Source of the DNA: SAR116 cluster bacterium
GTDB lineage: Bacteria > Pseudomonadota > Alphaproteobacteria > Puniceispirillales > Puniceispirillaceae
Assembly (NCBI GenBank): GCA_004213025.1
Contig: SHBC01000071.1
Location: 1-6,079, forward strand
DNA: 6,079 nt
Direction of reading: 5' to 3'
The position numbers and the translations under genes were made by a program. The notes under the pieces were generated by a model, which saw only the letters and a list, made by a program, of their open reading frames with translations, did no database searches and was not told where the DNA came from. Positions 834-5,777 of the stretch are shown one piece after another (position 1 is the stretch's first letter; each line of letters opens with the position of its first letter).

Positions 834-887
834 GATGCGGCATCCGGCCGCTGGACATTGCTGGCAGGACTTCCCATCTGCCGCTCC

Positions 888-1700
888 ATGGATGATCAAA
901 CCCCACCCTCCGCGCTGTCCGCCAGCGACCGGCAGGCCGTTATGGCCGACCTTATCTCGCAGTCAGGCCCGGATCCCGACCATGCCGCATCGCGGCCACT
1001 GCCGGGCGGACGCGCCGCCGGTGAAGCCGCGCTGGCTGCCATCGACCCGGTTGCCTACGGTGCCAGCCGCAATCATCTGGACGGCGCGGTGACGCGGCTG
1101 TCACCTTACATCCGGCATGGGATCCTCAGCCTGGACGAGGTTCGCAACCATGCGCTTGCCGCCGTGACAGACCCGCGTCAGGCCGAGAAATTCATTCAGG
1201 AGCTCGCCTGGCGGGATTATTGGCAGCGTATCTACCTTGCCCATCCGGACCGTATCTGGAACGACGTCGAGGCCTATAAGACCGGGTTTGATGCCGATGA
1301 ATATGAAACCGCCCTGTCGGCGGACATCATCGATGCGCAGACCGGTGTGGCCTGCATCGACCAGTTCATCACCATGCTCTATGAGACAGGCTATCTGCAC
1401 AATCACGCCCGCATGTATCTGGCGGCCTATGTCGTGCATTGGCGGCGTGTGCGCTGGCAGGCTGGCGCCGCCTGGTTCCTTGAACATCTTCTTGATGGCG
1501 ATCCGGCAAGCAATAATTTGTCATGGCAATGGGTTGCCAGCACCTTTTCAAAAAAGCCCTATATCTTCAATCTCGACAATGTCGCGAAATATACCGGCCA
1601 TGACATCAATACGCGAATGTCCGACAACCGGGTGCTTGCCTATTCCTATGAAAGGTTGAGTGAATTGCTGTTCCCGAATCTGGGGGTGGCCCATGGCTGA
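888..1700 (+). CDS. Stand-alone FAD-binding (catalytic) domain of a photolyase/cryptochrome
   Basis: A 270-residue protein matching only the helical FAD-binding half of DNA photolyases, which use flavin and light to repair pyrimidine dimers; the N-terminal antenna domain is absent. Visible motifs are RLSPYIRHG (70-78, flavin phosphate region), FIQELAWRDYW (102-112), GYLHNHARM (168-176) and DGDPASNNLSWQW (203-215). By alignment from memory with E. coli photolyase, N172 matches N341, R175 matches R344, D203 matches D372 and N209 matches N378. W213 and W190 match W382 and W359 of the electron-transfer Trp chain; no clear match to W306 is seen (W124 is a candidate). The C-terminus stops about 55 residues after the WQW motif, shorter than usual. 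The start is uncertain: ATG 888 is chosen by default, TTG 858 would lengthen it, and ATG 942 has GGCAGG 5 nt upstream. It overlaps the next gene, which resembles the missing domain. Repair versus photoreceptor function cannot be decided here. Confidence 0.85.
   Translation: MDDQTPPSALSASDRQAVMADLISQSGPDPDHAASRPLPGGRAAGEAALAAIDPVAYGASRNHLDGAVTRLSPYIRHGILSLDEVRNHALAAVTDPRQAEKFIQELAWRDYWQRIYLAHPDRIWNDVEAYKTGFDADEYETALSADIIDAQTGVACIDQFITMLYETGYLHNHARMYLAAYVVHWRRVRWQAGAAWFLEHLLDGDPASNNLSWQWVASTFSKKPYIFNLDNVAKYTGHDINTRMSDNRVLAYSYERLSELLFPNLGVAHG
1682..1686 (+). promoter_or_regulatory. Ribosome-binding motif for the antenna-domain gene
   Basis: GGGGG inside the end of the FAD-domain gene lies 6 nt before ATG 1693. 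It favours that ATG over an in-frame TTG at 1660 and indicates translation coupled to the upstream gene. Confidence 0.5.
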
Positions 1701-2130
1701 CCTGATCTGGCTGCATGACGGCGCGCTGCGGCGCACGCACCCCATCTTCGCAATGGCCGGTAAAGGCGCGCCGGCGCTGTTCATCTGGGACCGTGACAGG
1801 TTCGCGGCAGGCCATGTAGGGGTGCGACGCCAGCTCTTCATCTATGAAACGCTGGCCGAGCTTGATGTCGAGATTTATGAGGGCGATGCCGCCGATCTGA
1901 TGCCGCGGTTGTTGGCGGCGCGCGGGGCCGATCGCCTGCTGGTGCCAGCGAGCCCCGATCCGGTGATCCTGAAACAGATTGCCGATATCAGGCAGGCGAT
2001 GCCCGCCGTGACGGTCGATCTGGTCGAGGATACCCCCTTTGTGACCCTGACCATGGAGCCTGACCTTGGCAGGTTTTTTCGCTACTGGAACAAGGCCCGG
2101 AAAAGCGCGCTGCGCCCCCATGGTGTCTGA
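1693..2130 (+). CDS. Stand-alone photolyase antenna-like (N-terminal alpha/beta) domain protein
   Basis: A 145-residue protein that resembles the N-terminal Rossmann-like domain of photolyases and cryptochromes, which normally carries the light-harvesting cofactor. The opening DLIWLHDGALRRTHPIF matches the usual strand-then-DLRLHDNPAL pattern. ALFIWDRDRF (28-37) corresponds to the second strand, RRQLFIYETLAELDVEIYEGD (45-65) to the helix and strand that bring in the nucleotide-like fold, and RFFRYWNKARKSAL (127-140) to the closing F-x-x-(F/Y)-x-K/N-x-W-like helix. There is no FAD domain in the protein. The gene overlaps the 3' end of the FAD-domain gene by 8 bp (1693-1700) in another frame, so the two are almost certainly co-translated. 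The likely role is to form a two-subunit photolyase with the upstream product. Sequence similarity is modest, and the cofactor (folate, deazaflavin or none) cannot be told. Confidence 0.7.
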   Translation: MADLIWLHDGALRRTHPIFAMAGKGAPALFIWDRDRFAAGHVGVRRQLFIYETLAELDVEIYEGDAADLMPRLLAARGADRLLVPASPDPVILKQIADIRQAMPAVTVDLVEDTPFVTLTMEPDLGRFFRYWNKARKSALRPHGV

Positions 2131-2169
2131 GGCAAGCTGACGTCACCAGACCCCGGTCCCCGAAAGCAA

Positions 2170-2199
2170 TTGATCCGCGCGGTGGCTTTCCGATAGACT
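2170..2199 (+). promoter_or_regulatory. Candidate promoter of the pccBA operon
   Basis: TTGATC (2170-2175, 4/6 to a -35 box) and TAGACT (2194-2199, 4/6 to a -10 box) are 18 bp apart in the 105-bp gap between the antenna-domain gene and pccB. Transcription would start around 2206, giving a leader of about 30 nt. No clear terminator for the upstream genes is visible in the gap, so read-through is possible. Confidence 0.35.
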
Positions 2200-2235
2200 C
2201 CCGCCTCCAAGTGACTGACGTTCCGGGATGCTCAG

Positions 2236-3768
2236 ATGACTGATATACTTGCCGAACTCGAGGCAAGGCGTGCCAAGGCCCGCCTTGGCGGAGGGCAGCG
2301 CCGTATTGATACCCAGCATGGCAAGGGCAAGCTGACCGCGCGTGAGCGAATAAATCTGCTCCTTGATGACGCCTCATTCGAGGAATGGGACATGTTTGTC
2401 GAGCATCGCTGCCATGATTTCAACATGGAGGAGATGAAGGTCCCCGGCGACGGGGTGGTGACAGGCTATGGGACCATAGGTGGCCGACCTGTTTTCATCT
2501 ATTCGCAGGATTTCACCGTCCTTGGCGGGTCGCTGTCCGAGACGCATGCCGCGAAAATCTGCAAGATCATGGACCAGGCCATCAAGACCGGTATTCCGCT
2601 GATCGGGCTGAATGATTCCGGCGGCGCGCGCATTCAGGAAGGTGTCGCCTCGCTTGGTGGCTATGCCGAGGTGTTCCAGCGCAACGTCCTGGCATCCGGC
2701 GTGGTGCCGCAGATCTCGCTGATCATGGGGCCCTGTGCCGGCGGCGCCGTCTATTCGCCGGCCATCACCGATTTCATCTTCATGGTCGAAGGGTCGAGCT
2801 ACATGTTCGTCACCGGGCCTGATGTGGTGAAAACCGTCACCCATGAAGATCTGACGGCCGAGGAACTTGGTGGCGCGAAGATGCACAGCCGCGTTTCGGG
2901 CGTTGCGCATGGCGCCTTCGAGAATGACGTTGAAATGCTGATGCAGACGCGGGCGCTGATGTCCTTCCTGCCGCTTTCGAACCGTGAAGGGGCGCCGGTG
3001 ATCCCCTGTCATGACCCGATCGACCGTCCCTCGGCGGTGCTTGACCAGATCATTCCGGCGAACGCCAACATGCCCTATGACATGCGCCAGGTGGTGTTGC
3101 AGATCGTCGATAACGGCGAATTCTTCGAAATACACACGAATTACGCCGGCAATATCATCTGTGGCTTTGGCCGCATAGACGGCAAGACGGTGGGCATAGT
3201 CGGCAACCAGCCGATGGTGCTTGCCGGCTGCCTTGACATCAACGCCTCGCGCAAGGCGGCACGGTTTGTGCGGTTCTGCGATGCGTTCAATATCCCGCTT
3301 GTCACGCTTGTCGATGTGCCGGGATTCATGCCGGGTCTGGCGCAGGAAACAGGCGGCATCATCTCGAACGGCGCAAAGCTGCTGTTCGCCTATGCCGAGG
3401 CAACGGTGCCGAAGGTCACGCTGATCACCCGCAAGGCCTATGGCGGTGCCTATGACGTGATGGCCTCGAAACATCTTCGCGGCGATGTGAACTATGCCTG
3501 GCCAAGCGCCGAGATCGCGGTGATGGGGCCGGAAGGCGCGGCGCGGATCATTTTCCGCGAGGATGCCAAGGACCCAGACAAGCTTGCCGCCAAGACCGAC
3601 GAGTATCGCGAGAAGTTCGCCAACCCGTTTGTCGCCGCCGGGCGCGGTTATCTCGATGACATCATCATGCCGCGAAATTCCCGCCGCCGCATCGCACGGG
3701 CGCTGGCCATGCTGGCTGACAAGCAGCTGGAAAACCCGGCACGCAAGCATGACAATCTACCACTCTGA
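2236..3768 (+). CDS. pccB: Propionyl-CoA carboxylase, beta (carboxyltransferase) subunit
   Basis: A 510-residue cytoplasmic protein, the usual PccB length. It transfers the carboxyl group from carboxybiotin to propionyl-CoA, making methylmalonyl-CoA. The N-terminal carboxyltransferase half contains [25 protein letters not shown] and [12 protein letters not shown] (165-176), whose glycines (169-170) form one oxyanion hole. The C-terminal half contains [22 protein letters not shown] (near 320-341) and [17 protein letters not shown], with the second oxyanion glycines at 403-404. Asp407 in GGAYDVM corresponds, by recollection of the Streptomyces enzymes, to the residue favouring propionyl-CoA over acetyl-CoA (Ile in acetyl-CoA carboxylases). 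A weak ribosome-binding motif (CGGGA, 2224-2228) precedes ATG 2236. pccA follows after 29 bp, an operon arrangement giving the alpha6-beta6 holoenzyme. A methylcrotonyl-CoA carboxylase is less likely given overall motif similarity to PccB. Confidence 0.95.
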
Positions 3769-3797: not shown

Positions 3798-5777
3798 ATG
3801 TTCGATAAGATCCTGATTGCCAATCGTGGCGAAATCGCCTGCCGGATCATACGCACGGCCAGGAAAATGGGCATTGCCACCGTCGCTGTCTATTCCGATG
3901 CCGATGCCGGCACCCCGCATGTCACCATGGCGGACGAGGCGGTTCATATCGGCGGTGCCGCGTCCGCCGACAGCTATCTTCGTGCCGACCGGATCATCGA
4001 GGCGGCGCAGCAGACAGGTGCCAAGGCCATTCATCCGGGGTTCGGCTTCCTGTCGGAAAACGCCGGCTTTGTGACGGCGGTTGAGGCTGCCGGGATCGCC
4101 TTCATCGGGCCGGCGACAAAGGCCATTGCGGTGATGGGCGACAAGATTGAATCAAAGGCGCTGGCACAATCGGCCGGCGTGTCGATCGTTCCCGGCACCC
4201 CCGGCGCGGTCGAGGATGTCGAAACCGCCCTCAAGGCCGCGGCTGAGATCGGCTATCCGGTGATGGTCAAGGCATCGGCGGGCGGCGGCGGCAAGGGCAT
4301 GCGCGTCATTGAAAGCGCCGATGATCTGCCGGACGGCATGCGCGCCGCGATGAGCGAAGCGCAGACGGCGTTTGGTGATTCTCGTGTCTTCATAGAGAAA
4401 TTCGTCGTCCAGCCGCGGCATATCGAGATCCAGCTTCTGGCCGACCAGCACGGCAATGTGGTCTATGTCGGCGAGCGCGAATGTTCGATCCAGCGCCGCC
4501 ACCAGAAGGTCATCGAAGAAGCGCCAAGCCCCTTCATCTCGCCCGAGACCCGCGCCGCGATGGGGCAGCAGGCCGTCGATCTGGCACGGTCTGTTGATTA
4601 CCGCTCGGCAGGCACGGTGGAATTTATCGTCGGCGCCGATCAGGATTTCTATTTCCTCGAGATGAATACGCGTCTTCAGGTCGAACATCCGGTGACCGAA
4701 ATGGTTTACGGGCTCGATCTTGTCGAACAGATGATCCGCGTCGCCGCCGGCGAAAAGCTGTCCTTCTCGCAGGACGATATCGTTGCCGATGGCTGGGCCA
4801 TCGAGGCGCGTGTCTATGCCGAGGATCCGGCGCGTGGCTTCCTGCCCTCGATCGGCCAGCTGATCCGCTATCGCGAACCGCGCGGGGAGAGTGTACGGGT
4901 TGATTCCGGGGTCGAGGAGGGCGGCGAAATCTCGATGTATTACGACCCGATGATCGCCAAGCTGGTGGCGCATGCGCCGACCCGCGATGCCGCCATCACC
5001 AGGCTGCATCTGGCGCTTGATCATTACGAGATTGATGGCATCGCCAGCAACCGGCAGTTCCTTGCCGCGGTGCTGGAGAATGACGCCTTCAGGAGCGGCG
5101 ATCTGACAACCGGCTTTATCGCCACCGAATTCGATGGCGATTTCATGGCCGGACCACCCGACGATGTGGCGGCACTTGGCCTGACCGGGCTTGGCGCGGC
5201 GATTGCCGCGCTGCAGGACGAAGACAGGCATTTTGCGACGCCGGGCCGTGAATTCGTGGTCATCGACCAGACAGGCCGCCGGATGATGGTCGAGGTGGTG
5301 AAACTGACCGACATTGCCGCAAAGCTTGTTGTCGACGGCAAGACAATCGTCATATCGGGGCGCATCCGCAGCCCGGTGCATCTGTTTGACGGGACGATCA
5401 ATGAAGATCCCGTTGCCGTGCAGATCCGTCAGTCCGGCCATCGCATCACCCTGATGCGCGGTGCGGCAAGGCTGGCGCTGACGGTGCTGCCGGCGCGCTT
5501 TGCGCCGATGCTTGACCATATGCCGGCGCCGGATGAGGGCGCCGGTGCCGATGAAATCACGGCGCCAATGCCGGGGCAGATCACCAAACTGCTGGTGGCG
5601 GTCGGTGACGAAATCCGCAAGGGTCAGGATGTCGCCATCATCGAGGCGATGAAGATGGAGAACGTCCTGTCATCAGAGGCGGGCGGCACGGTCCGTTCGA
5701 TCGAAGTCGCCATCGGCGACAATCTGAATGTCGATGATCTGATCATGTCGCTCGACCTTGCCGGGGATGACGGCTAG
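3798..5777 (+). CDS. pccA: Propionyl-CoA carboxylase, alpha (biotin carboxylase and biotin carrier) subunit
   Basis: A 659-residue subunit that carboxylates biotin with ATP and bicarbonate. The biotin carboxylase N-domain (about 1-112) starts with [16 protein letters not shown]. The ATP-grasp domain (about 115-322) has the glycine loop [11 protein letters not shown] (158-168). Catalytic residues E275, E288, N290, R292, Q294, V295, E296 and R338 are all present, almost in register with E. coli AccC. The C-terminal lid runs to about 445. A beta-barrel BT domain (roughly 480-580), which docks the beta subunit, and a biotinyl domain (585-656) follow; K619 in EAMKME is the biotin acceptor. This architecture fits PccA; the MccA type is the main alternative and is disfavoured by the PccB partner. 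A weak GGGG (3785-3788) precedes the ATG. The stop codon overlaps that of the convergent gene. Epimerase and mutase genes completing the route to succinyl-CoA are not in the window. Confidence 0.95.

Follow-up and report, generated by a model that had tools for sequence, protein, structure and literature searches.

Can the two domains of a photolyase be supplied by two separate genes, in the reverse of the usual order? Class I CPD photolyases (E. coli PhrB, A. nidulans 1TEZ/1OWL) are single chains with the antenna domain first and a complete Trp chain, whereas the locus studied here, from a SAR116 cluster bacterium (contig SHBC01000071.1), has two genes with the FAD domain first. A sequence-only reading of the stretch of 6,079 nucleotides that contains it (hereafter the window) had proposed that a FAD-domain gene is followed, with an 8-bp overlap, by a small gene for the missing antenna domain. 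Both open reading frames are present with this overlap, in the following surroundings.

138–770, + strand: TetR gene, upstream of the FAD gene
888..1700, + strand: predicted FAD (catalytic) subunit gene, 270 aa, inverted-order photolyase family; ATG start; assigned from PF03441, structures, tree and active-site residues
1693..1700, + strand: 8-bp overlap ATGGCTGA, comprising the antenna gene start and the FAD gene stop; read from the sequence
1693..2130, + strand: predicted antenna-domain (alpha/beta) subunit gene, 145 aa, with a conserved C-terminal FFRYWNK stretch; ATG start; assigned from a sub-cut-off PF00875 match, family profile and dN/dS
2236–3768, + strand: carboxyltransferase-domain gene, downstream of the pair
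3798–5777, + strand: biotin-carboxylase gene, downstream of the carboxyltransferase-domain gene
− strand, in the window: GMC oxidoreductase gene, partial

We consider it probable that the two gene products are subunits of a single enzyme for light-driven DNA repair, a CPD photolyase of inverted order. The computed basis for this is the homology of both halves, their pairing, the varied reading frames, a ribosome-binding motif, natural fusions and CPD-type residues; from these we infer the complex, its docking, its chromophore and its substrate.

The FAD protein

The 270-residue protein belongs to the photolyase/cryptochrome superfamily, having a PF03441 domain with flavin-site residues. The PF03441 profile matched it with an E-value of 4.3e-25 over residues 102–231 (131 of 203 profile positions), as the sequence-only reading had expected, and class I photolyase structures matched residues 56–234 (best E 4.4e-21). 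The protein keeps N209, R109, D203, D205, S72 and Y57 of the flavin site, two of the three Trp-chain positions (W190 and W213, the distal position being Ala136), and the CPD-site Glu, Trp, Asn and Met as E105, W108, N172 and M176. The flavin Asn and Arg and the two Trp residues named in the earlier reading are among them. Class I CPD photolyases share the CPD-site residues and most of the flavin-site residues, and both of their domains are homologous to those of the pair. The search for relatives of the FAD protein covered the best 120 of 7998 scored candidates.

The antenna protein and its controls

On its own, the 145-residue protein matched PF00875 only below the cut-off (E 8.3e-4, 19.8 bits, cut-off 26.6), and an NCBIfam search with it gave no match. 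Its family says more. In an alignment of 26 members (A3), with identities to the window protein down to 21%, 13 members match PF00875, the best at 2.8e-8. The PF00875 match expected by the sequence-only reading was therefore found for half of the family but stayed below the cut-off for the protein itself. When the family profile was compared with the N-terminal domains of 13 canonical-type photolyase ORFs (hhalign), the match had Prob 98.5 and E 3.8e-15 over 139 columns, and the conserved DLGRFFRYWNK stretch aligned to what we take to be the start of the canonical interdomain linker.

With gappy columns removed, this comparison scored 93.0, while the best of 100 column-shuffled controls reached 24.5. 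Without trimming, three of 60 column-shuffled canonical N-domain alignments beat the real comparison (131–138 versus 97); two of these three were inspected and covered 5 and 24 columns, and we take the high scores for an artefact of shuffled gap columns. Reversed alignments gave E-values of 0.04–0.06, and an unrelated flavoprotein family gave 0.29. A scan of viral contigs with the antenna profile returned 120 pattern matches, with no relative among them. Because the family matches both PF00875 and, as a profile, the canonical domains, homology of the 145-residue protein to the canonical antenna (alpha/beta) domain is, at the level of sequence, well supported despite its own weak Pfam match. 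The suggestion of the sequence-only reading that the second protein is antenna-like is borne out by the family profile.

Conservation and selection of the pair

Both halves are under purifying selection, with dN/dS against four relatives of 0.17–0.20 for the FAD gene and 0.18–0.22 for the antenna gene. The close homologues of the antenna protein that carry names in a protein search come from Puniceispirillaceae or the SAR116 cluster. The adjacency from which the sequence-only reading had argued for two subunits recurs in other genomes. A scan of species genomes gave 17 antenna loci, and the FAD gene lies directly upstream in all 17, though in two (L010 and L016) it is cut by a contig end. Nine of 289 alphaproteobacterial genomes have a window-type FAD gene (at least 339 bits, the next match being at 159), and an antenna match adjoins it in each, weakly in G047 (3.6e-7) and G276 (3.4e-5); a tenth antenna match in this set lies inside a 491-residue photolyase-like ORF. 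The antenna profile matched in ten of 274 gammaproteobacterial genomes, in three of them as small ORFs that each adjoin a FAD gene and in the remainder within longer ORFs (414–519 aa). Among 121 genomes of the order of locus L002, 33 had antenna matches. The 25 of these that reach at least 121 bits are exactly the 25 genomes with the FAD type at at least 366 bits, with both genes on the same contig and strand (except that in G016 the FAD gene is divided between two contigs); the matches in the remaining eight are all weak and lie in longer ORFs.

A window-type FAD gene lacking an antenna gene was thus not found in the alphaproteobacterial genomes (9 of 9 paired) or in the order of L002 (25 of 25 paired), both sets including genomes first found through the antenna query and so not being independent of it. 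This pairing bears on the idea that the FAD protein acts alone as a short photolyase and that the small downstream protein does another job. Photolyases without an N-terminal domain (SPL) have been reported, but the constant presence of the antenna gene, together with the fusion of FAD and antenna domains in Deinococcus (below), makes this improbable.

Two halves that overlap out of frame could also be the remains of a decayed, frameshifted photolyase gene. We give this practically no credence: the domain order is reversed, both halves are under purifying selection, and, apart from the window, 37 genomes and one plasmid have the pair intact. The sequence-only reading had allowed that the FAD domain need not be a relic, and selection on both halves, the conserved pair and the same-order fusion in Deinococcus all agree with it.

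Junction and translation

The 39 pairs of the junction set (the window, the 37 genomes and the Deinococcus plasmid) all have the FAD gene first and the antenna gene on the same strand. The junction itself varies: the genes overlap by 8 bp in 16 pairs, by 4 bp in eight and by 1 bp in six, and are separated by 1–29 bases in nine, the antenna start being taken as the nearest start codon within 45 bases (for L060 the script took an internal start 29 bases past the stop, and the first ATG of the ORF would give a 1-bp overlap). Relative to the FAD gene, the antenna frame is +1 in 21 pairs and +2 in 18, and is never the same. The stop codons are TGA, TAA or TAG. Every pair has a start codon near the N-terminus of the antenna domain (38 ATG, one GTG). 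Of the 39 antenna starts, 22 have a match of at least four bases to AGGAGG before them; among 564 out-of-frame ATGs within these FAD genes, taken as controls, 37 do (Fisher p 1.7e-14, with many of the 39 pairs related). The window's own antenna start is one of the 17 without a four-base match.

Because overlap, frame and stop codon vary and the ribosome-binding motif is enriched, the sequences favour two separately translated, coupled subunits over programmed frameshifting. A programmed +1 frameshift at the overlap could instead yield a single full-length chain, a possibility that Haney et al. raise for phr4/phr5. Such a chain would agree with the fused proteins of the same order in Cyanobium (PMC9426592) and Deinococcus, and in 16 pairs the 8-bp overlap does put the antenna in frame +1. 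However, with 18 pairs in the +2 frame, three different stop codons, a start codon in all 39 pairs and the enriched ribosome-binding motif, we regard it as very improbable.

For the loci L025 and L026, nothing placed a marked TGA inside the conserved gene, and we make no claim of TGA recoding. Two FAD rows of alignment A4 are read with code 4.

Relation to known inverted-order photolyases

The sequence-only reading knew of no system in which an overlapping downstream gene supplies the antenna. Here it has to be corrected, since Haney et al. (2022, PMC9426592) describe in marine Synechococcus, in all examined, the adjacent out-of-frame ORFs phr4 (FAD) and phr5 (photolyase domain), and in two Cyanobium strains their fusion in the same order, phr6. 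They put forward a heterodimer and a product of +1 frameshifting as alternatives, without deciding between one protein and two. Among titles and abstract openings in the open-access literature, we found no further publication on such a pair. What stands of the two-gene, reversed-order interpretation is the conserved succession of a FAD gene and a separate antenna gene; what falls is its lack of precedent.

The reversed two-gene arrangement is real, is under selection and has already been described in marine cyanobacteria. Compared by description, Phr4/Phr5 resemble the window in that a FAD gene is followed by an adjoining antenna-domain gene in another frame (PMC9426592). The window pair is nevertheless a variant clade, in which the Fe-S motif is absent and the genes usually overlap (by 8 bp in the window). 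Phr4 and Phr6 have four Fe-S cysteines, which in Phr4 of RS9916 are C169, C254, C257 and C263 (PMC9426592), whereas the window protein has only the first (C156) and its clade lacks the CxxC...C motif. Elsewhere the cysteines are spaced 85/3/6 (L022 and L023) or 85/3/7–8 (L024 and three Deinococcus fusions). The spacing in L022 and L023 equals that of the Phr4 residue numbers (PMC9426592), which by motif would tie the family to Phr4/Phr5.

These fusions are ORFs of the same order, FAD first, on plasmids of Deinococcus psychrotolerans (457 aa), D. wulumuqiensis (472 aa) and Deinococcus sp. AJ005 (456 aa), and their antenna parts match at E-values from 2.4e-27 to 5.7e-30, calculated for a single-entry database. 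Annotated as 'FAD-binding domain-containing protein', they carry the same two domains as the window in the same order, but as a single chain of 456–472 residues with the CxxC...C motif. In Deinococcus sp. QL22 the two domains are separate genes that overlap by 4 bp. A further candidate fusion, L061, is an ordinary-order photolyase.

In a FAD tree of 76 rows, 63 inverted-order rows stand apart from 13 canonical-order rows (SH-aLRT 98); the tree, computed quickly and without bootstrap, drew a program warning of long branches and excludes L016, whose FAD gene is truncated at the end of its contig. Twenty NewPHL-like rows, recognised by architecture and not against a reference NewPHL sequence, form one inverted-order group (SH-aLRT 99), and the second group holds the split rows together with those of Deinococcus and Persicobacter (SH-aLRT 86). 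Within the latter, the 34 split rows without the Fe-S motif are a clade that includes the window (SH-aLRT 99). In the FAD tree of Haney et al., Phr4/Phr5/Phr6 are likewise nearest to Phr7 (NewPHL) (PMC9426592).

What is new here is the clade without the Fe-S cysteine motif, comparative evidence that favours two subunits in the question raised by Haney et al., and the extension of the reversed two-gene photolyase to marine Alphaproteobacteria, some Gammaproteobacteria and Deinococcus. A naturally separate antenna protein would also allow subunits to be mixed to probe flavin-site closing and light harvesting.

Proposed activity

As two subunits of a CPD photolyase, the pair would divide the work as follows. 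The FAD protein would bind FAD, hold the pyrimidine dimer and carry out electron transfer. In the antenna protein the canonical alpha/beta domain would exist as an independent subunit, translated from a start codon of its own in coupling with the end of the FAD gene; it probably docks on the FAD domain and closes the flavin pocket, and perhaps also holds a chromophore that harvests light. The likeliest substrate is the cyclobutane pyrimidine dimer (CPD), perhaps when it lies in single-stranded DNA, the form on which NewPHL is reported to act (Emmerich et al. 2020, as cited in PMC9426592).

Among the 34 Fe-S-less split rows, 33 retain the CPD-site Glu, 34 the Trp, 34 the Asn and 33 the Met, and nearly all inverted-order rows have these four as well as the flavin Asn and two Trp. 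Directly after the CPD-site Asn, all 63 inverted-order rows carry His and all eight class I-like rows carry Arg; at the distal Trp position, 24 of the 34 Fe-S-less split rows have Ala, as the window does. CPD repair appears the likeliest activity because the CPD-site residues are kept, because the sister NewPHL is reported as a CPD enzyme (PMC9426592) and because the pair and NewPHL do not co-occur (below). Against the preferred two-subunit CPD enzyme we count the sub-cut-off Pfam match of the antenna protein itself, the 17 of 39 pairs, window included, without a ribosome-binding match, the absent distal Trp, the His in place of Arg beside the CPD-site Asn, the fact that no chromophore site was identified for the pair, and the (6-4) prediction for phr4/phr5 (PMC9426592).

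The last point leads to a rather unlikely alternative, a two-subunit photolyase of the same family that acts on another lesion, such as (6-4) photoproducts, or serves as a light sensor. Haney et al. predict phr4/phr5 to be a (6-4) photolyase from its Fe-S cysteines, and in E. coli the genes protected against UV-C with very little effect after UV-B (PMC9426592). Moreover, 15 of 17 pair-carrying genomes have other PF03441 proteins, and CPD repair may already be covered there. However, in the clade of the window the CxxC...C motif is missing and the class I CPD-site residues are retained, and the sister NewPHL is reported to repair CPDs (PMC9426592, citing Emmerich et al. 2020).

A possible link to NewPHL

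NewPHL (Phr7) shares the inverted order with the window, its FAD domain groups with that of the window, and the C-terminal domains are weakly similar by profile. It is one chain with a Z-domain, whereas the window has two genes and a domain whose match to the canonical antenna domain is clear; the window protein also lies outside the NewPHL-like group in the FAD tree. The C-terminal part of 19 NewPHL-like ORFs matched the antenna family with a score of 35.4 (E 5.7e-5; 1.7e-5 with Deinococcus added) and the canonical N-domains with E 4.7e-4. After gappy columns were trimmed, the match to the antenna family fell to 26.0 (E 1.3e-3), modestly above the shuffled maximum of 20.9, and homology of the NewPHL-type Z-domain to the antenna domain is therefore only suggestive. 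It is, as far as it goes, new evidence, if weak, that this C-terminal domain is an antenna domain.

In the 121 genomes of the order of L002, the split pair (25 genomes) and NewPHL-like matches (51 genomes at 117–154 bits, counted by eye among the matches listed, which go down to about 97 bits; two of the 51 are short open frames of 174 and 275 aa) never co-occur (Fisher 1.3e-7, uncorrected for kinship). This would fit interchangeable roles, but may reflect kinship. We therefore offer only tentatively, and with the odds somewhat against it, a wider picture in which inverted-order photolyases include a large two-subunit clade whose antenna is free and may be exchangeable, the Z-domain of NewPHL is what remains of such an antenna after fusion and wear, and the split, Phr6/Deinococcus and NewPHL forms are mutually replacing states of one family. 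The family in any case offers a testable link to NewPHL.

Neighbouring genes

In L002 a TetR gene precedes the pair as in the window, and the downstream ORFs (510 and 674 aa) are similar in size to those of the window. ORFs similar in size to the window's carboxylase genes also follow the pair in L007 and L008. Six other loci (L013, L014, L015, L016, L017 and L090) have a gene for an amine-oxidase-like FAD/NAD(P) oxidoreductase directly 3' of the antenna gene, 327 aa long in the four that were read; it is a possible partner or electron source of the split pair. In the gammaproteobacterial locus L012, a 789-residue open frame (844–3213) lies upstream of the split pair, overlaps it by 4 bp, and has PF00875 and PF03441 domains of its own and a long N-terminal extension. 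One further locus has a second long ORF directly downstream, which is photolyase-like by eye.
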